From contig JAQGDQ010000183.1 of assembly GCA_030141605.1 (NCBI GenBank), positions 126,001 through 167,254 of the forward strand: 41,254 nucleotides of DNA. The letters are read 5' to 3'. A program made the position numbers and the translations under genes. This DNA comes from Tubiluchus corallicola (taxonomy: Eukaryota; Priapulida; Priapulimorpha; Priapulimorphida; Tubiluchidae). The notes under the pieces are model-generated. The model did not search any database and was not told the origin of the DNA. It saw only the letters and a program-made list of their open reading frames with translations. This document shows, piece after piece, positions 469 to 39,394 of the stretch (within the stretch, counting starts at the first letter, position 1; the number at the start of each line of letters is the position of its first letter).

Positions 469-668
469 CATTGTAACCCGGCACTGGCATGCCCGACACT
501 CCGTGGGGAGGATTGAGACTGTTCTTCAAGCCGACACAACTAGCGGTGATGGCCCACGCTGTCTCCGTTTGCCACCAGTTGTCCAAGACCGGCACCCCGA
601 ATGCCCACTTTCCCCAGTTCAACGTCTCGTTGTCGCAATGCTCGCCGGCTACGAAGAGATACCGAAAT
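469..668 (-). CDS. ACSS3: ACSS3 exon 8 (WWQTE motif)
   Basis: 200 nt. Acceptor TTTTCAG|A; the first base completes Lys443. Then 66 residues follow ([42 protein letters not shown]), ending one base into the next codon at donor AATG|GTAAGA. WWQTE is the conserved adenylate-binding motif. The next exons are outside the window. Confidence 0.94.
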
Positions 669-3600: not shown

Positions 3601-6600
3601 CAAATATGTTTCTCAGATGAGCCGAGAAAAATGCAAGACAGTTTAGGTAAAAAAAAAAGCAAGACAATCTCCTAACAATCAACACATCTCTAAAAGAGGC
3701 ACCTGGCAACCCTACGAGCCTGTACTAGTGTTATAAATCATGAAATCTACAGTACTAAAGCATCTTGAATGCTAATCCATTCGTTTAGCCAAAAAGGGTT
3801 ACCGGATGGTCAAGAACGGAATTAAAAAAACTTAGGTGTTCTTTTAGCTTGCATGTCACCTAGCTCCTGTTTCCATGGCGACAACAATCGTATTTCAAAT
3901 TTGAGAGCAACGTACTGCCAAAAATTTATGCACAACTTTTATTTTTTCATTAATTTTTTTACTGTTTTTGTTTACCCATACAATGTTTATTATTTTTTTT
4001 TAAAATTACCTGAAAACTCAGCTTCATTGGGTATTAGTCAGTAGGGGTGAGCATAAAACATTAGAATTCAACGTTCAAATTTGATTAGCAGGGGCTTTTT
4101 TTAAACCTAAAATTATGTATTCGAATAATCGATCACTTCAAATATAAACGTTCTGTATCGTTAAAACATTTCAAACATCGTCAACGTGGCGAGACTTCTG
4201 TGCACAATTTTTAAACAAGTTATTAGTATTTTTACTGCAGGACAAAATCGACTAATATGCACGACCTTTGCGAGACGGCCTTTTATAAAGCGAATTTGAA
4301 TTTGATTCGGATTCAAAGTCCTGAAGTTCGGTTTTGATTTGAGTTCGAAAGTCACAAATTCTCCTTCACGATTGGAATTCTCCTTCAGACAAAGAATGCT
4401 TGCCCCTACCTGCCAGTGTTTAAGTTGGTATCGACCACGTAGCTTAGTGTATCATTGCTACGCAGATGGCATCCCCATCTAGCGGTAAAAAAGGCACAAG
4501 CTGTTAAGCTTATTTCACAACACCATTTTGCAGAAAATGACGTAAAACAATAAGCCTATAAGCCTTCTAGATGCTTTAGTAGTGTGTCAGTTTGCAACCA
4601 AGGTTTTGGGTAATGAAAATGTACGGACAAAACAGCACATGGATCCACCTTTGATAAAGTTCAGAATTGAGTATAACGGGCCGCCAATCACGACAAAAAA
4701 TCATACAATAGCATAGAATAACATTAAATGTTAAAACAGTTTTTGTTCTAAATGCAAGCAGACCTGCCACAGAGCAAGCTTTTATGACACCAACCAGTAC
4801 AGAGCAGGAAAAAGGACGAAAGTAACTACAACTAGATAGACTAGCACTTGAAGCATTAACGAGAAAGTGACTTTGAGTGGCGTTAGAAAGTTTGAAGGAG
4901 TTCACCAACCACCTCTGTCAAATCCAGCTACCTACTTGTACAGCGTGTAGCGTCTACCAAAAACTATTTCGGGATCATCTTGTCGAACGGCTCGTAGTGC
5001 CGTCGGGGCGATAAACAGCGCCGACACCTCGTGATCGTGAATTACTCGGAACAAGCTGCCCGCGTTCGGCGTCCCGACCGGCTTGCCCTGCAAGAGAAGG
5101 AAATCGGCTCAGGGTAAAGTCAACTACGACGCTTACTTGTTCAGAACGTGATGTCTGCCGCGGAGAAATTCCGGATCCGCCGTACGTAGACCTCGCAGTG
5201 TGGTCGGGTCGGACAGGGCCGCAACGATATTGTGTTCGTGTATAACACGAAACATGGCACCGGCATTAGGAGTGGAAACGGCATTACCCTGAAAGTAAAA
5301 TTAGTACAACGAAACAAAATGATTCAGTTTAAATTGTCAATATAAGAGCTCTGCACGAGAAATGGTCTCTGTTGTCAAAAAAATTATAAATGCAGGGCCA
5401 TCTTAACAGCATTATAAGCCTCTGGGCAAAGCAGTGCACTGAGATCCCTATCAGTGCTTAAAGTGCACCGGGTCTGTCAGGGTCGCAGACCCAAAACCTA
5501 AATTTACTGACCCTGCACCTAAAGAAAAAACAATGTATCGCCCAGTTCACATATTTAGCTTTCTCACCATTTAATTACCTATAAGCATATCCGTAACACG
5601 TTAGTAGCACAATTTCCATCTTTCACTCAACAAAATTGAATTGTAGACGATAACAATGTGTACCTCACTTTTGTTGCAATTTTTCAGGAAAAAGCACGTT
5701 TCTTGATAAGTTATGCACAAGTAGTATAACGACTTAACTCTTTTTATCACCTAGTAACTTAGTTGTAATAAAATTTAGCTCTAATCAGGTGGCATGAGTG
5801 GCGCGATTGTCTTTGACAGAAGTAAATCAACATGTAAATTAGAGCTCGCGCACCTTGCTGTATTTTGTTTGCTCACTGATTCCTCGCGGTTAAACAGTTT
5901 GAGTAGGCCAAGACAGCTAGTGGATGAAAATTACTTAATTCCCTGATTAAAGAGCAATTGCTGTTTTTGAATTAAGACCTAAATTTTGTACCCTTGAAGA
6001 CGAAAAACCGTTGAGAAATTGCTTACTAAACTGACGTTTTTTCTACCATTAAAGGTCTCAAAAGCCTAAAATCAAGGACAATATAAGCCCCAATGGGGAA
6101 CCTTATAGTGCTCTCCAAGACCTTCTAGCTGTTTCTTGTTCTGTTCTAGCACTAGTCCCTACCTCTCCCCAGAGGTCCCCTACTAGTCCCTAGTCACAAC
6201 CAGTCACAGGAATAAAAATGTAAATGATTGGTAAAATGAAACAAAATTATATTTATTGTATTGGTATACAGTATTGGTATTTACACAAATTCAGTGTTTA
6301 AACATTAAAGAGCATGCAGTACAGCAAAGATTAATCAACACAAACGTTTTAACAGTACAAAATGAGTCTTGAGAAACACAAAAATTTTAACATATAAATG
6401 ATACTCTATTGGTAAACCATACAGATGGAAATGGTGCCGTATGAAATTTCTATGAATTATTTATTATTAATCAAGTATTCAACAAAAAAAATTGCTTAAT
6501 TTGCTTAACGTCAGCGGTCTTCAGAAAGTCATCTTCCGTACGAATGAGTGGAAGCCAGGTCAAACGCTAGTGGTCTTCGAAAAGTCATCTTCCATACGAA

Positions 6601-9600
6601 TGAGTGGAACCCAGTTCAAATGCTAGTGGTCTTCAGAAAGTCATGTTCCGTACGAATGAGTGGAAGCCAGTTCAAATGCTAGTGGTCTTCAGAAAGTCAT
6701 CTTCCATACGAATGAGTGAAAGCCAGTTCAAACGCTAGTGGTCTTCAGAAAGTCATCTTCCATACGAATGAGTGGAACCCAGTTCAAATGCTAGTGATCT
6801 TCAGAAAGTCATCTTCCATACGAATGAGTGGAACCCAGTTCAAATGCTAGTGGTCTTCAGAAAGTCATCTTCCACACGAATGAGTGGAAGCCAGTTCAAA
6901 CACTAGTGGTCTTCAGAAAGTCATCTTCCATACAAATGAGTGGAAGCCAGTTCAAACACTAGAGGTCTTCAGAAAGTCATCTTCCATACGAATGAGTGGA
7001 AGCCAGTTCAAACTCTAGTGGTCTTCAGAAAGTCATCTTCCATACGAATGAGTGGAAGCCAGTTCAAACTCTAGTGGTCTTCAGAAAGTCATCTTCCATA
7101 CGAATGAGTGGAAGCCAGTTCAAATGCTAGTGGTCTTCAGAAAGTCATTTTCCGTACGAATGAGTGGAAGTCAGTTCAAACACTAGTAGTCTTCAGAAAG
7201 TCATCTTCCATACAAATGAGTGGAAGCCAGTTCAAACGCTAGTGGTCTTCAGAAAGTCATCTTCCATACGAATGAGTGGAAGCCAGTTCAAATGCTAATG
7301 GTCTTCAGAAAGTCATCTTCCATACAAATGAGCGGAAGCCAGGTCTAATGCTAGTCGTCTTCAGAAAGTCATTTTCCGTACGAATGAGTGGAAGTCAGTT
7401 TAAACGCTAGTGGTCTTCAGAAAGTCATCTTCCATACACATGAGTGAAAGCCAGTTCAAACGCTAGTGGTCTTCAGAAAGTCATCTTCCGTATGAATGAG
7501 TGGAAGCCAGTTCAAATGCTAGTGGTCTTCAGAAAGTCATCTTCTATACACATGAGTGGAAGCCAGTTCAAACGCTACTGCCTCATTCTGCTAGGAAGCT
7601 GATTTTTTATAAGTTTCAGTCTTCAAAATGAACATTGTCCTACACAGAGCCTTAAATCAGAGACAAATGCCAATGTCTGCTCGTAACCTTAGACCTTAGT
7701 CCTTCCTGCGCATTGATGCACATTGGGCAGATAGCATTTTCCACTGAGTTCTATCGGCGGCTTCGTTCTCTACGTTTTCCCAACGTCTGTTGACAGCTCG
7801 AAGGTCTTCTTTGAAGGATCTGCGCCACGTTGTTTTTGGCCGACCTCTTTTTCGTTTCCCACCAGGTGGTTCCCACTGTACTGCTGTTTTGGCGTAGCGA
7901 CTTTCTGATAGACGGAGAATATGTCCACCCAGTTTCATTCTTCTCTCTGTAACTATATCTTGTAACCGCAATGACTGCGCTCGTTGAAGAACTTCTACAT
8001 TGGTGACATGGTCGCGGTAGGAGATTTTTAGTATCTTTCGAAGGCATTTTTGGTGGAAGACGTTCAGTTTCTTTGATAACTCCGCTGTGACTTTCCAGGT
8101 TTCGCTGGCATAGAGAGCCGTTGGCAGCACAATGGCGTTGTACAGACGAAGTTTGATTTTCATGTCAATTTTCTTGCTTGTCCAGATTTTTCCCATCTTC
8201 CTAAATACTGCTGTTGCTTTGCCAATTCTCCCCCTGATGTCATTTTCTGTACCAGATATGAAAAACTGGTAACGTTCTTAACCATTTGGCCTCCCACTGT
8301 TATATGTACATCATTCTGTTGGTTTGTCCACACTTTCAAAACTTTGGTCTTTTCTTGACTAATTCTCAATCCAATTTTTCCCACTACTTCTTCCATACTT
8401 GTGGTCAGTTGTTGCAGGCTTTCTTTTGATGTTTCCAGAAGAGCTATATCGTCAGCAAAGTCCAGATCTGCCAATCGTTGTTGTTGTTTCCATTGCATTC
8501 CTAGATCTTTACCATCAACCGCCTTGTTCATGATGAAATCAATCGTCAGTAGGAACAGGAATGGCGACATAATGCAACCTTGCTTAACTCCAGTTTCGAT
8601 GGTGAAATACTCGGTGTTTCCCTCTTGTGTTCTTATACAACAGCCGCTGTTTTGGTAAAAGTTCTGGATGGTTGAAATGAATTTCTGTGGGAAACCATAC
8701 AGAGAAGCAATTTTCCATAGAGACTGCCTGTGAACAGAGTCAAAAGCCTTCTTGAAATCAATAAAATTGATTAATAAGGGCTGTTGGAATTCCATACATT
8801 GCTCAATGATGTTTCTGAGAGTGAATATCTGTTCACAGCATGATCTTCCTTTTCTAAATCCAGCTTGTTGTTCTCTTAGTCTTATATCAACAGCATCTCT
8901 CAACCGATCTAGCAGCACTATACTCAGGACTTTTCCAGGTATTGACATCAGAGTTATTCCTCTCCAATTGTTGCAATCTGTCAGGTTCCCTTTTTTAGGC
9001 AACTTCACGATGACTCCATTTCTCCAATCTTCGGGGACCTTTTGTTGTTCCCAGCAGCTGTTCAGGAGCTTTGTCATTGATCGTGTTATCCCTTTATTAC
9101 CGTGTTTCAGGAGCTCAGCTGTTATTTGGTCCTCTCCAGCTGCTTTGTTGTTCTTTAGTTTTTTGATGGCAGTTTCGACTTCCAGTTCACTGATGTTGTC
9201 CAATCTTACATCTAGCTGTTGTTGTCCAATTTCATTCTCAAAATTGAATAATGTTGTTGGGTTTGGCTGGTTGAGAACTTCCTTGAAGTGTTCCACCCAT
9301 CGTGCGTTTTGCTGTTCTGTTGTTGTGAGAGTCACACCACTTTTGTTCTTGACTGGCACAGCTGGGGTGCCTCCTGTTCCCGTTAGATCTTTAACAATTC
9401 TGTAGAGAGTCTTGGTATCATTATGGCTGGCTGCTAACTGTGCTTCTTCACCCTTCTTTTCAAACCATTCGTTCTTGTCCCTCCTGCAACGTCTTTTTAC
9501 TGCTCTATCTGCCAGTTGGTACTGCTCATTGGCTTGACTCCTGCTTTCTGGTGTTTTTGCTTGGTCTTTCATTTGCTTAGTCTTCTTTCTTTCATCAATT

Positions 9601-12600
9601 AATTCCCAAGTTTTTTCTTGTATCCACATTTCTTTTCTGTTACCCCTTCTTCTGCCGATCTGTTCATCTGCAACTGCTGTTACTGCTTCTTTGAATATTT
9701 TCCACTGTTCTTCAATATCGTTGGCTTGTAGTAGTGGTTCAAATTTGTTGCTAAGTGCAAGTTCAAAACTCCTTGCTTTTTGTTGGTCTTTCAGGTTTTC
9801 AACCGCAAAAGGTCTTGTGATTTTTGGCTTTTATGTGATTTTATTGGCTATTTTATGATCTAAATTGCTACAGAAACAGACAGAAACAAACAAACAAATC
9901 TACTGCTCGTAACACAATAACAAATATGTATAGTTTGGTATAGTATAGTATTTTTTTTATTTATTCACAGCATAGTGAAGATTAGCATGAGCCCCTATGC
10001 GTGTGGTGTCCCCGGGCAACTGCCTAGCATGCCCATGCATTAAGACGGCCCTGTATAAATGCTGGTTTTGCCAGGTTAAAAATTCAAACGGTATATTGTA
10101 GTATGCTAAATAAATGCAAGTAAAAAAATTAAACGAAATGAATTCAATCAAATAGAGACTCAATTCGAATTCGCTTTCTGGTAGAGCATGCTCTTCCCAA
10201 GCAAAGAGGTACACTGCCAAAATCTCCAGAGCAAAAAAAAAAACTCTCCAGAGCAGGTATTGAACCTGGAGGTCACTCATCCATTCACTGACCAGACTAG
10301 GCATTGCTTAATTTGGTTGTGGAGCACATACCATCACCACTTCCAGTTCATCTATTTATTGAGCCTAGATGTCACAAGACATTCACAAAAAGAATACGAG
10401 CGGGACCACTCGGCCATGAACACCATCACATTACTGTTACAAAAGTAGAAACATCTGTTAGTGGTAAAAATACCAGGCACACTCACTCGAATCATATTAC
10501 TTTACTATGAAATGCTACAGTTTCCATAACTTACTTCATATAAAACAGACGTGTTGCATGTCAGCAGTGGAGCATAGCAGATGTAGGAATGACCCACGAC
10601 CCACCCAAGGTCGGACGCGGCCCACCAGACCTCGTGCGGGTTGATGCCGTAAATCGCTTTCATGCTCCAGTTTAAGACCACCGCGTGTCCACCACTAGGG
10701 CGCACCACTGCCTAAATTAAATATACAAATGCAGAAAATATCATTTATGCCAAAGCATGCATCAAACTTTTTTGAAAAAAAAATCATTCATTTTTGTAAC
10801 TCTTAAACCGAAATCATGACTCGCTTAAGAAATTTTCACAGCAGAAGTGCGCACCTTTGGTAATCCAGTAGTTCCAGAAGTGTACAATATGTAGATGGGG
10901 TCGGTGGACGGTATGGGAACACAATCGTGACTGCGAGCTGTGTACATTTCTTCATCCCAGTTTACGTCTCTACCTGGATGCAGTCGGGCATCTTCCTAAA
11001 ATTGAATAACAAATCGGGTTACCATCACAATTAACAGCTTTGCTAGGCTAGCTAGGATCCTAAAACTGAATAACAAGTAAGACTGATGATGATCGTGAAA
11101 AGGTCAAAGGTTAAGTGTACCAGACAACGCATTTGTGTACTCGTGACAGTACCTCGCAGCCCAAGCTGTAGTAATATTAGCACTTTCCTTAGCTAGTTTA
11201 TTTTTTCTTGTTTCCAAGCAAAATCCTGCAAGTAAATCACTCTACACAGAGACTAATGTGTAAAATAAGTAAAGCCCACGTACAGTCCACATATGCTATC
11301 TAAGAAAGTTCATGTGTTCAAATACCAATTAAGATATCTAAATTATGTTAAAGTTAAAGTTAGTGTACAGAACAATGTGAAGAATACAACGGGAAACAAT
11401 GCATTTTAGCAAACTGCACTGAATCTATTTTGATGGCTCAAAATGCTGCCGCACTTTCTCTGTATGAAATGGGGACCAATTTGCTCTCTTGGCATTCTTC
11501 TGCTTCCAAGAATCACTTCCTTACCAGGTCACATCAAAAGTCAATCCTAATTTCTCACCACAAGAAACCAAAATTAAGAGAAAGAACAAGTCACTCCACA
11601 TCATGGGTCTGTTTTACTGTTATTACTTAAAGATAGAAAAATATAACAAAGAAATAACTGTCTATAAAGTGTAAAGTTTATTTATACTACTGCTGTATAG
11701 AAATTTTCAGGTGCGGTGGTAGGCGTCATTCACTATAAAACTATGACATAACTGGGAGACTTCATGACTTTTTGTAAACACATCATGGCTTTCCATAAAC
11801 ACGCACTGCTTAAACTAATTCAAACTTCTGCAGCTTATCTAACATTCATGCGAAAAATATTACAAGATTAGCTATCTAATTTTTTGTAAGGACTTGTTAT
11901 ACTTCTTACGGAAATTGACAAGTGTGTTCCTTTTCTTCAGCTATTAAATGACATCATTGGTGGAAGAACTGGTGTTCAAAATGGAGGTGCGCAAGGGTGA
12001 AATGATCAGGATTCTAATGTGATGTTACTGATTGCATGAGATGATCTCGCAGTTTTATTATTAAATCCTTCTAACATTTTTTTGCAAACACTGAAATAAG
12101 TCAAACTTCCCAGCAGGATTGGCTTTTCCTTTAATCAGTAATTAAGTAGTAATTTAGAAATAATGAAGTTGAACTCAAATCAAAATGTATTCAACTCCTG
12201 CTGTTGATTAATAGCATTATTAACCCAAAGTGTTTTTATCATTTCATAACAATTTTGACTTGTATTTCACATAAAATCTAAATGCAATTTTTAGTTTAAT
12301 CAAGATTGACCTTATTTTGTTGCCCGCTAATTAAATTACATACATGTATATTCTTTTCTCTGGATTATATAGAAAATACTATATAATTTATATATAAAAA
12401 TTACTAATGTTTCCTAAAATTAAACTGATAACATTAATGCCCACCAGTGTCTAAAAAATCTTTTTATTTATATTCGGTAAAGGAGAGCAGACCAGGTGAC
12501 TTTATAGTCTTTTCGCTGTCCTTTCTCTAGTTCTAGATCTATATATTTTAATCATTTTTCAAGATTTATTAGAGATTCTTTTATTAATCATGTTTTATTG

Positions 12601-13097
12601 TAACACTATAGAGATAAATAAATTGAAATTGAATTGAAAAAAGTAATTACACTTGGTTAGCAAAATCTATACAATTTGCTGATTGTCAGCAGAACATAAA
12701 TCATATTTCAATAAGGGAAATCTCCTACCATTTGTGGACGGTTTAATATAATGCACTTGTCTGGCTTGTGATCGCACATGTCAACGGCGTCGTCTAGGAT
12801 GGTTTTGTAATCCACCAAGCGTCCGGGTTCGATGCCGCAGTTTGCCGACAAAACAACTGCAGGCTAAAATGAAAAATAACAATAGCTTGCATAGTGCACT
12901 AAGATTTTCATTTATGCATCTCATACAGTAAGTGCTGCAATAATTTTAGTAGTAGTAGTGGTATTGGTGGTGTTGGTGTTGGTGGTGGTGGTAGTGGTAG
13001 TGGTGGTGGTGTTGGTATTAGAGGTGGTGGTGGTGGTGCTGGTGGTGGTAGTGGTAGTAGTAGCAGCAGTAGCAGTAGCAGTAGCAGTAGCAGCAGC

Positions 13098-13167
<70 letters not shown>

Positions 13168-16100
13168 ATAGTTTCATTCACTTAGGACATAGTCCAGCGA
13201 TACCACCTTAAGTTGCTCAGTACTTATTTCCAAGGGGTCCTTAGAGGTGCCCATCGAATGTTAGAGTTCAATTCAAATGAGTTTTTAGTTTGAATTCGAT
13301 TCGAACCTAAAATTACAGATTCAAATAATTCAGCACTTCAGCCACACACGTTCCTTATCACAAAACGTTTGAAACGTCATGCAATTAGCACAATTTAACT
13401 TTTAACTGCAGTTTCGGTGCACAACAAATTATTAGTTTTATTGCAAAACAAAATCATGTAATATGCACGATCTTTGTAAGACTGCTTTTTACTGGTTGTT
13501 TGAAAACTTGGTTTGAATTTGAAACGCTGGAATATTGATGTTTTTTACGTTATTCTCGTTGTAGCATGCAAGACCTTATAACAACTGTATCAGCTGTAGG
13601 TACCTTATTAGTACAATAACTGTACAAATAACTATACAGGTAAAATTATTTAAAGGTAAGATTACATTAAGACTTTTAAAATTGGTAACATATTTCTCGA
13701 CACACCATTAAAAGATCACTCAACCTTCTTCAATACATTACCGTTCATCAGGCGATTAATAATCACAGTTTACCAAAGCTCATTACTGCCATAATAAGCT
13801 ACCTGTGCATGATTTATTCGGACGGCAAGTTCTCGGGCAGCGAATCCGCCAAACACTAACGAGTGAATGGCGCCTATCCGGGCACAAGCTAACATGGATA
13901 TCACCGCTTCCGGTATCATAGGCATGTAGATGAGGACACGGTCACCTTGTTGTACGCCATATTTCACGAGAATTCCGGCTAATCTTGCCACCTGCAAATG
14001 ATATCATATAACGGTTACGAACGCACAGCTCGGAAGCTGTCTTACGATCTAGTAAATACCATTAGTTAACGTAAACGTAAAGCATAAACATAATTAATCT
14101 AATGTAAACAATATGACGGCAGTCTTGTACAGGGTGTTCCAAAAGAAACAGTGCAATGAGATCATAATGATGTAAAAATAACATTATATTTTTGTCACTA
14201 TACGAATTTTCCGCTGCAGCTGGCTTTTTTAAACTAACCCTCAAACTGTATGTGGTGTATTACTGTAAGTAAGTCACACAGTAGTAAGTACTGAAAGTTT
14301 GAGAATCTTTTAATCTATGCCAGAGTGGTCTAAATGGCTGTGCACAGTGGGCAGTTGCCACAGCTGCCAGGAGGGCCCATAAGCATAGAGGACCATGCTA
14401 ATCTATGTGTGTTGTGACTTGCTGTCAATAAAAAATTACTATACTATACTAAATTATATAAATATTTGTTAACGTGTTACAAGTGGACATTGGCATTTGC
14501 CTCTGATTTAGTATCACAGCCACCTCCGCACAATTAAAATAGTCAGTCAACTCCTTCAGGACCGTGCCATTCAAAATAGGTCTTATAAGACCTATGACTT
14601 TTGCTGTTAGTGTATGAGCACGGATGTAACTAAATGATTACAAATTAGGTACTGTTCTATTCAGGAGAATATCAGTTATCCAATCATGTTATTTGTTTAA
14701 ACACTTATAAGTGATTTATTTGGATAAAATCCAGAAAAGCACGCCCTCTTCGGACACTCTAACTTAGCCTTATTGAGTAACTTAGTCTGGTGTACACTTG
14801 CGTGATCGTACACACTATTTTATTGATCGCCTGCTTGCTACAGAATCAGCTGTACAGAGTTCTGCTGCTATTCCAGGAAAAACCAACTGATCAGCCAAGG
14901 ACAACTTAAGGCCGTTTTATATTTTAACAGGAATTTTTCCTTAAATAAAGAATAGCCTTTAAGCCAAAGTGTTCGAGAGCGTTGCGTCTGGATAATAGAA
15001 ATTCTCTGCATTAGCCGATTTCACAGAAGTGATACCGTATCTTGTTACAGTGCAAACATTGCAGTTACTGAAAGCTTTTTTCGATTTATTCATCAAAAAT
15101 CGATTTTTAATTTATCTAATGTAAGCATTTCATGTATAATTTTGCATGAAAGTTCATTGTATCAAGAGTAGAAAGCTGCAAAAATTATCAAATGTAACGT
15201 AATCACAGCTTAGTGAGTGCAGTTTTTCATGAACCCACACAAAATGCACCAAACGCTTACGGTCTTAAGTATCTAGTTATCATTCTTTAATTAATCAATC
15301 AGACTTAATTCGTACCTTTTGCTGCAGTTGTCTGTAGGATATATTCGTCATGGTCTTTGTCACAGGACTGTCGTGAATGATGGCGACTTGGTTCCCAAAA
15401 CCCCTTTCCACCCACCGATCTACGCAGTTGTAGCAAGTGTTCATCTCACCACCAACAAACCTGGAAAAAAATCAATAATTACGTATTTTTTTCAGATGGA
15501 CAGTTTTTAGCTCTGAAACAATAAGTATAGAAGGGAAGGTAAAAATAAAAAATGTGCATAATTATCATAATGTCGAGAAAAGGGCATTTCACTAACTGCC
15601 CTAGAAGCTTATAAACAAAGAACCTTGTTTTAAGATGAATAAATCGTTGGATGCCCTTTATACTCTCATAACAGATTATTTATTTCTTTTGGGAGCTTTT
15701 GTTCTAACAGGCCTCATCAGCTGACTAAAGTATGCTGCTAACCTGGCAGTGTAGGAAGCTCCAGTGCTAACCCTCAGTGTAAGGATCACGCTACCACTGA
15801 GTTATTACGCCACCTGGTACTACCAGGTAGTACCTTAGAGCATTTTATCTGGGAATTTATTTTAGTACAGATAAGGCATAAAATATACAGCTATCTGCAT
15901 CATTTACGGTTTATAAAAAGTTTAGCAGAGCACTTTGCTATTAATTTTTCAAACTGAACTGTTTCACACTGAAATGACTAACTCTAGCAGTGGCGGTGTA
16001 CAGATACTGTAAAACTGCAGCACACTCTATTTTCACTTAATATTATCGATAATATTTAATATAACAAGTCTTTATTCTTTAGTTCCTTCTTTATACTCGT

Positions 16101-19100: not shown

Positions 19101-20933
19101 ACTCACTAGAAAAAGCTGTGGCAATACATTATGTGCTAAAATATATACTTTTTACAATACTTTAAAATGGTGTAAGATATGAAAATTCCTACTGTTTTCT
19201 TTTAAATTACTGAACTTAAGGCATCTGTCAACAATTTCTTCTTAATTCAATCATAAACAAGAATCACTTTATTAATTAATTCGACTATAGAGGTATGATC
19301 CAGGGTTTGCATACCGCACATTTCAATTACAGTCAGGAAATGAAATAAAAACTTCTTGTTTGACTTGCAAATGTCAATTTCATGCAGAATTTCCCAATAA
19401 CAAGCAGTTATTATTGTGCCAGTCTAATTGCAGACTAAACGCTTTTTGCAGGTAGATCTTCTGCTTCTCAATTTAAGGTTGTAACTTGAATTCATAAGCA
19501 AGTCTTTATACAACAAATAACGTGATGTAGCTTTAAAGGGAAACAGGTTGATTTTTCACATCCTATCCCATTTTCAAGTACAGTAAAAAGTAGACATTTC
19601 AACACCTATAATAATGCCAAAGCATTTCTGATACACAGAATTAAATAATAAGTTAGAAACTTAAAAGCTGGCGAACCTAATTAGTGATCATATCATAGCT
19701 GAACATAATTTCAACAGCGCAAACATTTCACGAGCATGTTGCATATGTTCACAAATCAAAAATTGAAGTACAGCATTCATGATATACAAAAACTCTGCAA
19801 ATTTAAAATTCAAATTTAATCTTTGCAGCTGTGCTAGCACATCAGCCCTTGAACATGCGTTCTATATCAGACCTGAACACCTCTGAAATGAGAGGTACAG
19901 CACTTGCTTTTTGGGCAATGTGTTTGCAAATGCAGGTGCCAATGCCCATCTAACTAGCGAACTGCAAAATGCAAAGAGAAGAGCTAGCCATGCGAAATTA
20001 TGTTTCAGTGGTAATAATTCGTTCGTGTCAATTATTCTTGAAAAAAATACAATATTTCCTTTCAGTATTTTATAGGACAAATTATTTTGAGTTATTAAGG
20101 TCCAGTTTTCCTATAATTGTATCTGAGACAAAAACGTCTACTGCAACTTGCCTACTAAATAAAATGGTCAATTTTTAAGGTGCTTGGTTTCAGTTTGCAT
20201 GATGCCAGTGGAGGAAACATCTCAGTTAGAAACCCCACTGTAGTCGGATACTAGTATATTGGCCACGAGACCAGAACCCCGACAACTCGAACAGAAACAA
20301 AGGGCTGAAGACACTGGAAATGAACCTACAACGCTACACTGTTTATTTCTCTGCCTAAAATGGTAGCATTAACGGAAGCCACTAAGGATCACTCCTTGAC
20401 TATTTCGTGCAATTATGGCCAAAAGCTGTGCATTGAAAAGGACACTTTCCATACTGGTAAATGATGGTTATGGACTTGGTCCTTTGACAAAAAATAATGT
20501 CAGATATCTACCACACCACAAGCAGTTAGTGCCAATTTTCTTACCACTGTGTGAAAGGTGAATTAGCGTCATCTAGGACTCTATCCCACTTCTTGTGCCA
20601 CGTAAGTTTTTCCGCTTGCTCTGCCCAGAAATCTTCAGGATTATTAACAGATGCCCGAAACACCTCTTCATATTCTCTGCTGCGGAATCGTTCCATTTCA
20701 CCGTATGCCTTCGTTGCAACATGTTTGGGATCCCTTGGAAATGGTGTTGGCACGGGGTCTTTTTGAGGAGTTGATTGTTCAGGCGCTTCGCCTACATCTT
20801 CATCACTGACACTTTCTGAAGTTGAGGAACAATGTTTCGCATGCTGCAAGAGTCGAAGTCGCAAGCATTGGTTTGTAACGTCTTGCTTACAGAAACCTCG
20901 AAGCACTTTCTGAATTATACTGGATGAAAACAT
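469..20933 (-). CDS. ACSS3: ACSS3-type acyl-CoA synthetase, short-chain, mitochondrial (multi-exon, 3' end outside window)
   Basis: Eight exon positions joined by GT-AG introns give about 509 residues resembling ACSS3 (686 residues in human), so roughly 175 C-terminal residues lie beyond the left edge. Family role: ATP-dependent ligation of propionate and other short acids to CoA through an acyl-adenylate, in the mitochondrial matrix. Visible features in order: a basic, Ser/Leu-rich N-terminus like a mitochondrial presequence; an ACAS_N-like segment (about 88-150); the AMP-binding domain with P-loop [10 protein letters not shown] (324-333); [15 protein letters not shown] (362-376); FIAPTA (417-422, exon 7B); and WWQTE (474-478). 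The ACSS3-like stretches [20 protein letters not shown] and ITASCVGL favour ACSS3 over ACSS1/2. Met at 20933 has A at -3. All exon phases match. Exon 7 exists in two alternative versions. The introns hold most of the repeats in the left half of the window. Confidence 0.93.
748..1285. mobile_element. piggyBac-like MITE, copy 1
   Basis: 538 bp flanked on both sides by TTAA (744-747 and 1286-1289). The left end has ACGGACGATTG; the right end CAATCGTCCAGTCTTCCT is its inverted repeat. A second full copy lies in the opposite orientation at 35399-35925. TTAA target sites with short terminal inverted repeats are typical of piggyBac-derived non-autonomous elements. No ORF. Confidence 0.75.
1483..1807. 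mobile_element. GAGTAACTCG-palindrome MITE, copy 1
   Basis: 325 bp with terminal inverted repeats (GGCGCTTTCAGACTAG at the left; right end, complement, GGCACTTTCAAACTTAG). The interior repeats GAGTAACT and AGTTACTC in both directions, so a transcript could fold back. Other copies are at 3239-3542 and 33153-33384. The superfamily is not decided because the target duplication is unclear. Confidence 0.65.
2181..2566. mobile_element. Tc1/mariner-like MITE candidate
   Basis: The ends read AATAAGCCTTTT and, inverted, AAAAAGGCTTATT. About 40 bp inside each end, AAGGTCAAAGGTTAAG and its complement extend the symmetry. A TA on each side could be the target duplication. A second partial copy lies at 11078-11290. 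Confidence 0.55.
3239..3542. mobile_element. GAGTAACTCG-palindrome MITE, copy 2
   Basis: 304 bp, homologous to 1483-1807 over its length. Left end GGGAGCTTTCAAACT; right end, complement, GGCATGTTCAAACT. Internal GCGAGTTACTCTCC and GAGAGTAACTCG can pair. The short ORFs through it are incidental. Confidence 0.65.
4042..4408. mobile_element. hAT-like MITE (TAGGGGTGAGCAT family), copy
   Basis: Left end TAGGGGTGAGCATAAA; right end GAATGCTTGCCCCTA. The interior shares about 130 bp (TTGTAATATGCACGA-type core) with 13242-13530 and, inverted, with 28795-29159. The target duplication is eroded. Confidence 0.6.
4936..5087 (-). CDS. ACSS3: ACSS3 alternative exon 7B (canonical version)
   Basis: 152 nt, phase 0 to phase 2, acceptor CTCTTGCAG|GGCAAG, donor TACAA|GTAGGT. 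Encodes [16 protein letters not shown], then [16 protein letters not shown] and YTLY, matching the ACSS3 consensus closely, including the APTA motif. It joins exon 8 to read [13 protein letters not shown]. Only 49 bp (5088-5136) separates it from 7A, against 143 bp for the next shortest intron in this gene. Confidence 0.9.
5137..5288 (-). CDS. ACSS3: ACSS3 alternative exon 7A (divergent duplicate)
   Basis: 152 nt, phase 0 to phase 2, acceptor ACTTTCAG|GGTAAT, donor GAACAA|GTAAGC. An open frame of 50 residues from [20 protein letters not shown] to the end, homologous along its whole length to exon 7B (25 of 50 identical). Of those 25 conserved residues, 16 use different synonymous codons, so the copy is old yet constrained. 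The core motif differs: LSDPTT replaces FIAPTA (Ile to Ser, Ala to Asp, Ala to Thr). Using both copies in one mRNA would shift the frame, so this exon should replace 7B. It may give an isoform with altered acyl or CoA handling, or a non-catalytic one; this is inference. Confidence 0.82.
6507..7580. repeat. 56-bp minisatellite, about 19 units
   Basis: Head-to-tail units of 56 bp, each containing GGTCTTCAGAAAGTCATC and GAATGAGTGGAAGCCAGTTC. The unit phase is constant (for example GTCT at 6517 and 6573). Units differ by point changes (CATACG, CGTACG or CATACA; GCTAG or ACTAG), so the array is not freshly amplified throughout. It ends about 100 bp from the LINE insertion. The 56-bp period is not a multiple of 3 and shows no coding signal. 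Confidence 0.9.
7688..9902 (-). mobile_element. Non-LTR retrotransposon (LINE), 5'-truncated
   Basis: 2215 bp flanked by a perfect 11-bp direct repeat CTGCTCGTAAC (7677-7687 and 9903-9913), the target duplication. It encodes a reverse transcriptase with no endonuclease upstream, so it is 5' truncated. The 3' end is only about 8 bp past the stop codon, as in RTE-like elements with very short 3' UTRs; the clade is an inference. It inserted into an older MITE whose uninterrupted relative is at 14330-14515. Confidence 0.9.
7696..9830 (-). pseudogene. LINE reverse transcriptase ORF, one frameshift
   Basis: The frame is open from about 9830 to a break near 8250-8254, then continues in another frame to a TAA at 7696. 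The RT palm is complete: [47 protein letters not shown] and catalytic FADDI near 8450. After the break come [26 protein letters not shown] and the Lys/Arg-rich [13 protein letters not shown], the conserved C-terminal region of RTE/BovB-like and related elements. The upstream endonuclease is missing. The single frameshift and open remainder suggest a fairly young but dead copy. Confidence 0.88.
9914..10056 (-). mobile_element. CAGGGCC-family MITE, right part (split by the LINE)
   Basis: Continues at 7640-7676 on the other side of the LINE. Reading the minus strand it starts CAGGGCCGTCTTAATGC and, past the LINE, ends near TTAAGGCTCTG, a loose terminal inverted repeat. It carries a run of ATACT units. 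The intact relative is 14330-14515 in the opposite orientation. Confidence 0.6.
10080..10197 (-). mobile_element. hAT-like MITE fragment
   Basis: The complement of 10140-10195 reads GAGCATGCTCTACCAGAAAG then GAATTCGAATTGAG, like the left end of the 28795-29159 element. The other end is missing. Confidence 0.4.
10230..10425 (-). repeat. tRNA-related SINE-like repeat, copy 1
   Basis: The minus strand has ATGGCCGAGTGGTCCCGCTC, an A-box-like stretch of the Leu/Ser tRNA type, near 10418. A weaker box follows, then a body containing GGTCAGTGAATGGATGAG and GGTTCAATACCTG. Parts of the body recur at 17035-17090 (plus) and 37100-37215 (minus). Dispersed copies plus pol III-like boxes support a SINE, but the boundaries are unclear. 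Confidence 0.45.
10535..10711 (-). CDS. ACSS3: ACSS3 exon 6
   Basis: 177 nt, 59 residues (334-392), phase 0-0. Contains [29 protein letters not shown] and ends NTSVLYE. Acceptor AATTTAG|GCAG, donor TATGAA|GTAAGT. The phase-0 end joins equally well to exon 7A or 7B. Confidence 0.95.
10855..10995 (-). CDS. ACSS3: ACSS3 exon 5 (adenylate-forming P-loop)
   Basis: 141 nt, 47 residues (287-333), phase 0-0. Contains [16 protein letters not shown] and the ATP/AMP-binding loop [10 protein letters not shown], whose final Lys is the last codon of the exon. Acceptor ATTTTAG|GAAG, donor CCAAAG|GTGCGC. The loop is intact, so the enzyme should form acyl-adenylates. Confidence 0.94.
10996..12728 (-). other. 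ACSS3 intron 4
   Basis: Holds a partial copy (11078-11290) of the MITE at 2181-2566. The rest is AT-rich with no recognisable feature. Confidence 0.55.
11078..11290. mobile_element. Partial copy of the AATAAGCC MITE
   Basis: Matches 2208-2430: GATGATGATCGTGAAAAGG, then CAGCCCAAG and AGTAAATCACTCTACA. The terminal inverted repeats are missing. Confidence 0.6.
12729..12863 (-). CDS. ACSS3: ACSS3 exon 4
   Basis: 135 nt, 45 residues (242-286), phase 0-0. Reads [15 protein letters not shown] and later [15 protein letters not shown], matching the ACSS3 segment around IEPGR. Acceptor ATTTTAG|CCTGC, donor CAAATG|GTAGGA. Too short for an ORF-length filter; found by homology and splice sites. Confidence 0.92.
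12946..13168. repeat. Trinucleotide microsatellite (GTG/GTA/GCA)
   Basis: Variant triplets grade from GTG/GTT to GTA/GCA and then to more than 20 pure GTA units. Long open frames (poly-Val, -Leu, -Thr) are by-products of the period of three. Confidence 0.95.
13242..13530. mobile_element. hAT-like MITE, decayed copy
   Basis: Starts TAGAGGTGCCCATCGAATG (compare TAGGGGTGAGCAT). It shares the core TGCAATTAGCACAATTTAAC with the complement of 28795-29159. The right end is not recognisable. Confidence 0.5.
13803..13991 (-). CDS. ACSS3: ACSS3 exon 3
   Basis: 189 nt, phase 0-0, 63 residues (179-241). Contains [14 protein letters not shown] and [18 protein letters not shown], a highly conserved block of the acetyl/propionyl-CoA synthetase family. 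Acceptor ATTTGCAG|GTGGC, donor GCACAG|GTAGCT. Confidence 0.95.
13992..15315 (-). other. ACSS3 intron 2
   Basis: Contains the CAGGGCC-family relative at 14330-14515. The rest is AT-rich with no recognisable feature. Confidence 0.55.
14330..14515 (+). mobile_element. CAGGGCC-family MITE, uninterrupted relative (empty site)
   Basis: Homologous to the complement of 9914-10056 joined to 7640-7676, including ACTATACTATAC, AATATTTGTTAACGTGTTAC and GACATTGGCATTTGCCTCTG. At the position of the LINE this copy has GTGTTACAAGTGGACATTGG with no insertion and only one copy of the target. Confidence 0.7.
15316..15460 (-). CDS. ACSS3: ACSS3 exon 2
   Basis: 145 nt, acceptor TTTTTTCCAG|G and donor CAAAAG|GTACGA. 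It completes Trp130 and adds 48 residues ([16 protein letters not shown] to ISYRQLQQK), the family's conserved N-terminal block with the '[10 protein letters not shown]' motif. The frame is open and ends in phase 0. Confidence 0.92.
15644..15830 (-). repeat. tRNA-derived SINE, full copy
   Basis: The minus strand begins with a tRNA-like head: TAACTCAGTGGTAGCGTGATC (A-box type), then GGGTTAGCACTGG in the B-box position. The body has CAGCTGATGAGGCC and AACAAAAGCTCCCAAAAG, and the tail AATAATCTGTTA. Body and tail recur inverted at 16580-16705. Heads with degenerate internal promoters and a shared body are typical of SINEs. Confidence 0.6.
16580..16705 (+). repeat. SINE copy without clear tRNA head
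   Basis: The plus strand has GTTAGCAGCACTC, then CAGCTGATGAGGCACATTAG, AGCAAAAGCTCCCAAAATAA and AATCTGTTATTAGA, matching the complement of 15644-15770. It faces the first copy about 0.8 kb away, so the pair could form a long RNA hairpin in the intron. Confidence 0.55.
17276..17433. repeat. Degenerate TGTGTCCAAA tandem repeat
   Basis: About nine copies of TGTGTCCAAA or close variants spaced roughly 15-28 bp apart, with variable spacers. The minus-strand ORF here (FGH, IWT repeats) simply reads the repeat. Confidence 0.7.
19068..20095. mobile_element. Long-TIR element, eroded copy
   Basis: The left part 19068-19200 and right part 19700-20095 match 33015-33150 and 33420-33840 (shared words: GAGAGGTACAGCA, GCAATGTGTTT, GTGGTAATAATTC). 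The left terminal repeat is lost, and the interior differs from the 33-kb copy. Confidence 0.55.
20545..20933 (-). CDS. ACSS3: ACSS3 exon 1 (start codon, presequence, N-terminal domain)
   Basis: Encodes residues 1-129 plus two bases of Trp130. The start [14 protein letters not shown] is basic with no acidic residue before D18, consistent with mitochondrial import. Residues about 36-70 are acidic and Pro-rich, likely a linker. From about 75 the sequence ([24 protein letters not shown]) matches the ACAS_N region. The donor is CAGTG|GTAAGA and the phase fits exon 2. Confidence 0.93.
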
Positions 20934-23322: not shown

Positions 23323-26300
23323 ATGTTTACAAAATTAAAAAAGAAAATAGTTGAAGACGAAGGTGCTGGTAGTGCCAATGGCAATGAAGGTGTATTGCCA
23401 AGTCCTGTTAAAACTACGGACTCAAAACTTGGCAGTTTAATTGACCTGTCTAAAACAGTAATAGCTCAATCTCCACCACGAAGTCCGACTCCGTCCGTCA
23501 CCGGATCTGATGTGTCTCATTCTAGTCAGCGAAGCGAAAGCCGAGCCGTGGAACAACTAAAACGACTTCTTCAAGAGCGGACCGATCACGTGAGGAAGCT
23601 GGAGAAAAGTTTGCAGGAGTCAGAAGAACAGCTTAAAGAACAAGTGAGGCAGAAAGACAAAATTGAACTGGCGCTGGAGAAACAGCAAGATTCCGCTGCT
23701 AAAAGAATCCATGAGCTAAACGAGACCCATCACTCCGTGCAAGCTCGGTTAGCAGAGTCGTTTAAGAAGAAAGAGGAAGAACTTCATAACAAAATAGATA
23801 AACTACAAGAGCAGCTGGCCGACATTGATGCAATACGAGAAAAGGTTTATAAACAACAAGAGGATATGGACGAAATGCAAGGTCTTCAAACACAGGAGAC
23901 GGCAAAAATAAAGCACATGTTACTTATTACAAAAGAAGAGTTACGAGAAAAAACTGAATTAATCGAAAAGAAAGATGAAGAGATGAAGCAACTAGAAGAT
24001 GAACTAAAGAAAGAAAAAGTAAGAGTACACAGCATTTCTAGTGAGAGGGATGAAATTAAAGAGCAAGACAATCACCAGACTTCTTATATTGATGTTGTAA
24101 CAGCTGAGCGCGATTCATTAAAAGCAAATGTTGCTGAACTCACTAAACAACTTGATGAAAGAATCATGACTCACCGGAGTGAAAGTCATGCCGCACAACA
24201 ACAGAAGGACGAATTGGAAACACAAGCTGCAGAATTAAAGCAGAATTTGGAGAACCGAGATAAGCAAATTCAAGATTTGCAAAACCAAGTTGTACATCAA
24301 ACTGAGTTGGAACAACAGTTGTCTCACGTGCAAACGGATTTGAATTTGAAAAGTGAAACTTTAGTGAATTATGAAAGTCAAGTCCAAGATCTTCAGAATA
24401 CCTTAAGTGAAAGTTCCTCTAAGCAAAAAGATAAAGAGAAAGAACTACAAGATAAAAACGTGGAATTTGCAAGTGTGAATTTACAGTTGCAGCAAAAGAT
24501 AGATGATCTGGAGACAGAAATACGACAGAAATCTGAAACATTCCATGACGCAGTCCAACGACTAAAACAAGAAATGCAAAATAAGAATGAACAACTACAA
24601 AAACTTAATGAGCATTGCGCTAATCTGGAAAGAAAATACGCAGATAAGAAGTATGAATTGACCGGCGCAAAGGAAACATTGACACAAACAGAAAGTCAGT
24701 TATCTGTTTTGCTGTCTGAATTAAAATCTAACCAAACTGAAAAAGAGCAAGCACAAAAAGTTCTGGAGAATAAAAGTAAGCAGCTTTTAGCTACTGAAGA
24801 AAAATTTAAACACCTGTCTGATGAAATCGAGATCTCCCGGTCACAGCTTGCTTATAGCCAACAGCAGGTTATTCAGCTCCAACAAGACCTTGAGTCAAAA
24901 TACAAGGAACTGAACAATGACTCTGAGTTTAGAGAGAAAGAACTCACACATTTAAGAGCTGATCTAGAAAGCAAGGAACAAGAGTTGATTAGAGAACGTG
25001 ACGCTGTTCGCGATTTAGATGAAAAGATGAAAATTAAGTGTGGAGAGTTGGAGCAGTCATTAGCCGACATGAATCAACAAAACGCAGCTATGCAAAATAA
25101 AATAGATGAGCATGATCAGCAAGAAAATGCTTTAAAATCTGAACTACAAGATAAAGCAAAACAGCTAGACAAACTTAAGCAACTTGCCAGAAAATTTCAG
25201 GTACAAGCAAAAGAGTTAGAACAGGGAAAATCAGCATCTAACTGGGAGATTGAGACATTAACACAAAAACTAGGAGATGCCAACAGCAAAATTCAAGAAA
25301 CCGAACAACAACTTGCAGAAAAAATTACTACTGTAGAAGAACTAGAAGAAAAACTAGAAACAATAAGAATTGAACATAAAGAAATGCTGATGGAAAAGCA
25401 AAGACACATCGATAGTTTGCAAACTGACATTGTTGATAAAGTCGCATCCCTAGAGGTGTTACAAAAGCAGCAAGTTGAAATGAATGATTATGTGACAAAG
25501 GAACAAAAACGAGTGGAATTATTACAATCACAAGTTGAAGAAAAATCAACGTCACTAGAACAGCTACAGAAGGAACAACACGAAAAGGACGAACTTGTTG
25601 CAGAAAAGCAGAAACAGGTAGAATCACTGCAAGCGGAGGTACAGGATAAAACGGCATTGCTGGAGCGTTTGCAAACTCAACAAATTGGAGAGAAAGAGCT
25701 TATTACAGAAATTTCCAAACTAGAGCAACAAAATAATGAGTCCAAGCAAAGATTGTCAGCTTTCCAACATGAGCTTGAACAAAAAGTAGAAGAAATAGAA
25801 ATGTTGGCTTCAAAATTAGAGGGTGAGAAGAAACATTCACATGGACTTGAAAACCTGAATGATGAGAAACAAGCAACAATTATATCTTTGCAGTCCAATT
25901 TGGAAGACAAAAATGTTGTAATTACTGATTTGAAGAAAAATCTAGAAGAAGTAAGCAATAATTTGTCAATCTCAGTAGCTGAGCTGGAAAGTAAAAGTAA
26001 CAAAATTTCTGAATTGGAATCACACGTTGAGGTTGAGCTTGCTAAAAATTGTGAAATTATATCGAAACTGGAAGTGAAACTGAATGAGAGCAATTCTGCA
26101 ATTTCAGATTTCGAATGTGCATTGCAAGCAAAAGAAGAGGTAATTTCAGAATTACAATGCAAGGTTGATGAACTGAGCCATGGGAATGCTGAAGAAGTTA
26201 GACTAAAACAGGAAATTATCTCCAAACTTGATGCCGAACTTACTGACTATAAAGCTAATGCTGCAATTCTCCAGCAGACCTTGGACTCAAAAGTGCAGCA

Positions 26301-34599: not shown

Positions 34600-34711
34600 A
34601 CATACATACATACATACATACATACATACATACATACATACATACATACATACATACATACATACATACATACATACATACATACATACATACATACATA
34701 CATACATACAT
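34600..34711. repeat. (CATA)n microsatellite
   Basis: About 28 uninterrupted CATA units. The ORFs in it (HTYI, CMYV repeats) are artefacts. Confidence 0.97.
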
Positions 34712-34857
34712 AATACAGGCAAACACAACTTTAAAACATAGTTACGCGTATAAGTACTTTAAAATAAACATGATTTACCTATGTGTTGATAACTTTATAG
34801 TATAATAATGACATTAGAGCTGCTGAGCTCCACTCCGAATGGAAAACCCCACTGCTT

Positions 34858-37593: not shown

Positions 37594-37636
37594 TTTCTCT
37601 CTCTCTCTCTCTCCCTCCCTCTCTCTCTCTCTCTCT

Positions 37637-37678
<42 letters not shown>

Positions 37679-37879
37679 TCTCTTTCTCTTCCCGTCTGTC
37701 TCCAGCTTTCTCCTTCCCTTCTCTCTCTCTCTTTCTCCTTCTCTTTCTCCCTTTCTCTCTCTCTCTCGCTCTCTCTCTCTCTCTCCCTCCCCCCTCTCTC
37801 TCACTCTCTCTCTTTCTCTTCCCATCTGTCTCCCTCTTTCTCCTTCCCTTCTCTCTCTCTCTTTCTCTTTCTCCCTTTC

Positions 37880-37925
<46 letters not shown>

Positions 37926-37962
37926 TCTTTCTCTCTCTCGTTCTCTCTCTCCCTTTCCTTCT

Positions 37963-37993
<31 letters not shown>

Positions 37994-38086
37994 CCTTTCC
38001 TTTCTTTCTCTTTCTCTCTCTCTCTTTATACATCCCTGTCTCTTTCTGAATTTCTCTCTCTCTCTCCCTCCCTCTCTCTCTCCCTC

Positions 38087-38169
<83 letters not shown>
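37594..38169. repeat. (CT)n microsatellite block, about 575 bp
   Basis: Mostly CT with CCCT and TTTCT variants. It carries internal duplications: TTCCCRTCTGTCTCC recurs at 37689 and 37818 (129 bp apart), and ATACATCCCTGTCTCTTTCT occurs at 37572 and 38030, so larger segments were duplicated. The Arg-Glu ORFs on the minus strand are artefacts. Confidence 0.95.
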
Positions 38170-38171
<2 letters not shown>

Positions 38172-38477: not shown

Positions 38478-38482
38478 TCTCT

Positions 38483-38566
<84 letters not shown>

Positions 38567-38582
38567 TTCTCTCTTTCTCTTT
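38478..38582. repeat. (CT)n microsatellite
   Basis: Pure CT preceded by (AAT)n at 38463-38478 and ending in TTTCTCTC units. Confidence 0.95.
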
Positions 38583-39025: not shown

Positions 39026-39297
<272 letters not shown>

Positions 39298-39394
39298 AGG
39301 AAAAATCAAGTTGATATTCTGATAAAATATTGTACAGAACACCCCTTTCGCACTAAATGTAAGTTTCTGTTGAAGCTAAGTTATGTATCTGCCC

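Follow-up and report, generated by a model that had tools for sequence, protein, structure and literature searches.

A tandem-duplicated, putatively mutually exclusive exon pair in an ACSS3-like acyl-CoA synthetase gene of Tubiluchus corallicola

Among acyl-CoA synthetases, mutually exclusive exons are described for ACSL1 and ACSL6, in which F-gate and Y-gate exons encode alternative versions of a 26-residue segment (PMC1543647; here and below, papers are cited for the sections of their text that were available). As in the gene reported here, a homologous exon pair swaps a short segment on the active-site side of an acyl-CoA synthetase of the same superfamily. The ACSL enzymes differ in belonging to the long-chain family, and their exons carry the fatty-acid gate motif, the two members of the pair being distinguished by a Phe or Tyr gate residue. 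Transcripts without both ACSL exons are also reported, whereas skipping both breaks the frame in the ACSS3-like gene. A second precedent is provided by exons 4a and 4b of OGDH, likewise a duplicated exon pair in a mitochondrial metabolic enzyme, where one isoform has a regulatory property absent from the other (4b contains a Ca2+-binding motif) and where branch points 25–41 nt from the 5' splice site, under a proposed steric threshold of ~50 nt, enforce exclusivity (PMC7969005). OGDH is an unrelated enzyme, and its intron, 118–131 nt long in birds and mammals, has mapped distant branch points, whereas the whole intron described here is 49 nt long and its branch points are candidates from sequence. 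Human tandem duplicated exons are also homologous and mostly old, and their substitutions mostly keep functional residues and are conservative; the fly Cacophony pair, with 16 of 39 residues in common and many non-conservative changes, is as divergent as the pair reported here (PMC9741552). Mouse ACSS3 itself activates propionate in mitochondria (PMC8858619).

Literature searches on ACSS3 and alternative splicing, and on mutually exclusive exons and acyl-CoA synthetase, gave no report of such a pair in a short-chain acyl-CoA synthetase, both judged by titles and abstract openings among the matches listed. The main text of PMC9741552 contains no word starting with ACSS or ACSL, and that of PMC5740500 none starting with ACSS3 or ACSL. 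A search of the splicing literature for Priapulus gave no paper naming this genus among the matches listed. The kind of exon pair is already known from ACSL1/ACSL6 and OGDH, and the ACSS3 example appears to be new. We know of no earlier mutually exclusive exon pair in a short-chain acyl-CoA synthetase; if both exons are used, the present one would be the first.

The window analysed, meaning the whole stretch of 41,254 nt, lies on contig C1714 of the 343.5-Mb T. corallicola assembly and carries the ACSS3-like gene on its minus strand (Table 1). In a full-length search with the protein containing exon 7A (7999 proteins scored), the best-scoring relative was the ACSS3-like protein P0003 of Priapulus caudatus, with 75% identity overall and 78% outside exon 7, and the two sequences grouped with 100% ultrafast bootstrap in a 47-sequence tree built without exon 7. 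The product containing exon 7B fits ACSS3 and PrpE, with N-terminal domain homology, the P-loop YTSGTTGxPK, WWQTE and the C-terminal catalytic Lys motif PKTRSGK. The top NCBIfam model was propionate--CoA ligase, which scored 484.9 bits with 7B and 473.9 bits with 7A, both below the cut-off of 955 set for the whole protein; only the first 509 residues served as query. The C-terminal exons with PKTRSGK and the stop codon lie outside the window, at C1714:115.8-124.0 kb, and read intact; the search did not locate one short exon, ~20 residues long, that belongs between exons 8 and 9. Judged by these sequence features the gene is ACSS3, as an earlier note on this DNA had named it.

Table 1. Exons of the ACSS3-like gene and the intron between exons 7A and 7B, in window coordinates
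Feature	Position	Strand	Gene	Remarks
Exon 1, from first ATG	20545..20933	-	ACSS3-like gene	
Exon 2	15316..15460	-	ACSS3-like gene	
Exon 3	13803..13991	-	ACSS3-like gene	
Exon 4	12729..12863	-	ACSS3-like gene	
Exon 5	10855..10995	-	ACSS3-like gene	[10 protein letters not shown]
Exon 6	10535..10711	-		DLGWVVGHS; phase 0 at end; upstream splice partner common to 7A and 7B
Exon 7A	5137..5288	-		Divergent alternative, 152 nt; GNAV...LSDPTTLRG
7A-7B intron	5088..5136	-		49 nt, proposed too short for splicing; YTNAY at +17 and +22
Exon 7B	4936..5087	-		Canonical ACSS3 exon, 152 nt; GKPVGT...[10 protein letters not shown]
Exon 8	469..668	-		VAGEHCD and WWQTET; entry phase 2; downstream splice partner common to 7A and 7B

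Exons 7A and 7B are of the same length, run from phase 0 to phase 2, have AG/GT borders and are separated by 49 nt. Their peptides are identical at 25 of 50 residues and their DNA at 85 of 150 nt; a different codon is used for 16 of the 25 common residues, and the third base differs at 13 of the 17 fourfold sites that they have in common. The numbers given in the earlier note for these two adjacent exons with good splice sites, including the 50% identity and the 16 of 25 different synonymous codons, were all reproduced. A search of the window with the 7B peptide recovered 7A at E 3.7e-15, and four exon-7 queries revealed no third copy in the window (besides 7A and 7B, no match at E < 0.5); no Rfam family was found in the window. 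When consensus frequencies were used for scoring, all four splice sites of 7A and 7B ranked at 98–100% relative to decoys taken from the gene's own introns (1121 GT and 1070 AG), the donor score being higher and the acceptor score lower in 7A than in 7B. Exon length, splice-site and phase compatibility and peptide homology, by which mutually exclusive exons are recognized in the available text of PMC3228551, are all found in this pair. An assembly or haplotype artefact, for which the single assembly gave no supporting point, has an almost negligible probability: merged alleles would not be expected to show saturated synonymous divergence, only 50% amino-acid identity or a 49-nt spacer flanked by proper splice sites.

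Inclusion of both exons breaks the frame, as had been claimed, and leads into stops, and skipping of both does likewise, which means by frame arithmetic that a productive mRNA requires exactly one of the two. Very short introns are spliced in some invertebrates. The other seven introns in the window measure 143–5246 nt, and four 3' introns of the gene that were measured range from 561 to 3816 nt. Branch-point-like YTNAY candidates occur at +17 and +22 of the 49-nt intron. Any branch point in this intron lies below the ~50-nt threshold between 5' splice site and branch point quoted in PMC7969005, which, if it applies in this animal, agrees with the earlier suggestion that the intron is probably too short to splice well. 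On the best reading of the sequence, 7A and 7B probably arose by tandem duplication and are used in a mutually exclusive way. Exon 6 would be joined to either 7A or 7B, and the chosen exon to exon 8; splicing of 7A to 7B would be prevented because the 49-nt intron has no room for U1 and U2 together, and products of double inclusion or double skipping would be frameshifted. We infer that both exons are spliced in vivo and that this steric mechanism operates here.

The early stops that arise when both exons are included would also suit a regulatory (poison) role, in which 7A is spliced together with 7B and the resulting frame shift leads to mRNA decay and so tunes the ACSS3 level. This would require splicing of the 49-nt intron, and a poison exon needs no homology, equal length or open frame, all three of which 7A keeps. 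Past protein-level constraint on 7A, described below, also argues against such a role, which we regard as highly improbable.

The duplication was said to be old, and the divergence of 7A from 7B (dN 0.43–0.46; dS 1.9–2.6, saturated) indicates the same. It had further been claimed that both copies are under selection. In simulations without indels that took 7B as the ancestor and assumed an omega of 0.08 for 7B, a wholly neutral 7A that was given as much time as 7B matched the data in 0 of 600 runs at each of the nine distances, a match being defined as at least 25 identical residues, at least 34 third-base differences and no stop. An omega of ~0.2–0.3 on 7A came close to the observed data. In mixed-model simulations, neutrality over the last 20–30% of the time fitted at d = 0.8–1.0, and neutrality over up to about half of the time fitted at d = 0.6, a distance at which the observed third-base divergence was rarely reached. 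In a test free of the equal-time assumption, the neutral probability of having both no stop and so high a BLOSUM sum was P = 0.016–0.021; conditioned on the absence of stops, the clock-free test was weaker (P 0.055–0.066), and its count of conservative changes in 7A was unremarkable under drift (P 0.28–0.40). Rejection of drift since the duplication suggests that 7A was coding for much of its history.

The distribution of changes was examined relative to an inferred ancestor, comprising the 44 of 50 columns inferable when 7B was compared with P. caudatus and with the family majority; this procedure tends to assign differences to 7A. Since this ancestor, 7A has acquired 21 changes, which fall alike on conserved and on variable columns (p = 0.45), and 7B has acquired 6. 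With other references the column-conservation test was mildly favourable (p = 0.043 against the family majority, p = 0.079 against 7B); the ancestor-based value is preferred because it isolates the changes of 7A itself. The lack of avoidance of conserved columns suggests that 7A evolved unlike a normal ACSS3 exon, and such an even spread is expected under drift and under altered function alike. The claim of selection on both copies thus holds insofar as drift of 7A throughout is rejected under equal time, and fails insofar as ordinary ACSS3 selection on 7A is contradicted. The sequence is consistent with 7A having coded for protein through much of its past while following other rules than ACSS3 does; decay may have followed later.

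Compared with the family, 7A changes GKP to GNA, F to L and APTA to DPTT. In the GKP loop, K is present in 240/240 and P in 239/240 homologues, where 7A has N and A; the F of F-x-(A/V/S)-PTA, present in 238/240, is L in 7A. Asp at the A/V/S position and Thr at A30 each occur in 0/240 homologues, which bears out the reported conversion of APTA to DPTT. The 7A product lacks the GKP and F-x-(A/V/S)-PTA residues expected of ACSS3/PrpE. Relative to the human tandem pairs (PMC9741552, available text), 7A alters several positions at which its family varies hardly or not at all; if 7A is used, the pair would depart from the human pattern, in which functional residues are mostly kept.

No 7A-like segment was found in the 240 homologues examined, which distinguishes 7A from ACSS3 and the bacterial PrpE propionate-CoA ligase (PDB 5gxd). 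In the full-length search with 7A, in which the 7999 candidates sharing most words were scored (all E <= 1e-20), none of the best 120 was 7A-like. A fragment search with exons 6+7A+8 placed 812 of 888 candidates at E <= 1e-10, with nothing 7A-like among the 120 matches listed, and a search with the 7A region (residues 391–450) gave 7 candidates, none at E <= 0.1. The annotated protein of the closest relative, P. caudatus, has the 7B type only. For placement of 7A, 46 homologues were picked from 120 (coverage of at least 85%, below 80% mutual identity, P. caudatus kept regardless). When 7A was tried on every branch of a fixed tree of these homologues and 7B, with exon 7 as the sole data, the branch of 7B was best; P. 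caudatus, one internal branch and two other single branches (P0091, from a lizard, and P0116) came within ~2 log units and were not rejected by the AU test. With several branches unrejected, the placement does not fix the date of the duplication.

These observations bear on whether 7A has lost, or is losing, its function, having remained coding long after the duplication but drifting at present while 7B alone is used. Such decay would account for the replacement of residues that vary hardly or not at all among the 240 homologues, for the even spread of changes over conserved and variable columns and for the 7B-only protein annotated in the closest relative, and the simulations allow roughly the last 20–30% of the time, or more at short distances, to have been neutral. 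It sits poorly with an exon that has no stop and no indel, an intact phase and a strong acceptor and donor, with the low probability under drift of such mild replacements and no stop, and with the rejection of a wholly neutral history under equal time. We consider decay of 7A unlikely, and return to 7A and 7B as alternative coding exons.

On the latter reading, 7B would give the ordinary mitochondrial propionate-activating ACSS3, and 7A a variant in which the same helix-strand-helix segment folds but differs in the GKP loop and at the strand end and helix start (FxAPTA). The second, CoA-using half-reaction would then be changed (slower, or with a different acceptor), or the isoform would be an inactive regulatory partner; the acyl pocket would be unaffected. 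We infer that 7A folds and that its changes have a biochemical effect. In the AlphaFold model of the Priapulus protein, helix 405–414 begins immediately after residue 404, the site of the Ala-to-Asp change. Asp is a good helix cap. This change, the most notable one in 7A, falls at the position of Ala357 of Salmonella Acs, to which we ascribe a CoA-side role. A CoA/pantetheine-tunnel role for Ala357 was not stated in the papers that could be searched, and a search with the peptide motif APTAIR gave only papers unrelated by title among the matches listed. The available text of a CoA-pocket study describes tests of Arg, Tyr, Lys and Gly residues (PMC10455477), which map by position outside exon 7. 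An alteration on the CoA side of the active site is plausible for the 7A isoform, given the role ascribed to Ala357. That splicing disables or redirects the CoA half-reaction, making 7A adenylation-only, directing it to another thiol or amine acceptor, or making it an inactive damping partner, is a tentative and rather unlikely proposal, based on Asp at the family's small residue beside the CoA path and on the rewritten GKP loop. If true, splicing would here switch an adenylate-forming enzyme between its two half-reactions. The pair offers a natural test of the roles of the GKP loop and the APTA segment in propionate activation.

A switch in acyl or CoA specificity had been suggested in the earlier note, of which the CoA side stands as plausible and the acyl side is unsupported. 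An acyl-chain switch would resemble the gate-exon switch proposed for ACSL1/ACSL6, where the exon pair would swap acyl-side residues (PMC1543647, available text), and exon 7 directly follows the exon with a DxGW gate-like motif. This motif, the short-chain counterpart of the ACSL gate, is however found as DLGW in exon 6, common to both isoforms, and the gate motif is absent from the 7A/7B pair. The residue that sets acyl size in Acs, Trp414 (PMC10455477, available text), falls in exon 8, within WWQTE. With Trp414 encoded outside exon 7, a direct acyl-specificity switch is less likely, and we judge it distinctly improbable. Further acyl-pocket residues, V310, T311 and V386, presumably correspond to exons 6 and 8, which both isoforms have in common.

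Other features were recorded in the window and elsewhere in the assembly. An uninterrupted 1749-residue coiled-coil-like ORF (23323-28569, plus strand), is golgin-like and carries a GRIP domain at its C terminus (Pfam E 2.8e-13). It and the ACSS3 gene are arranged head to head, with ~2.4 kb between their first ATGs. Intron 6 contains a retrotransposon fragment (7696-9830, minus strand) with a reverse transcriptase domain (E 7.6e-34) and a frame broken near 8160-8277, adjoined by a 56-bp tandem repeat of 19 copies with 91% matches (6516-7577). Long microsatellites of CT, AG, TACA and CTA/CCA type were noted by eye at 37600-38170, 38480-38580, 39090-39300, 34600-34715 and 12950-13170. On another contig (G000:C1874:3130002-3166191), five long and one short AMP-binding (PF00501) matches occur within 36 kb and appear to form an expanded acyl-CoA synthetase-like array. 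Single open frames of 527–655 codons with PF00501 matches were found on C731, C452, C1809, C1761, C1092 and C230 (L001-L005, L008), and some of these contigs may be bacterial.
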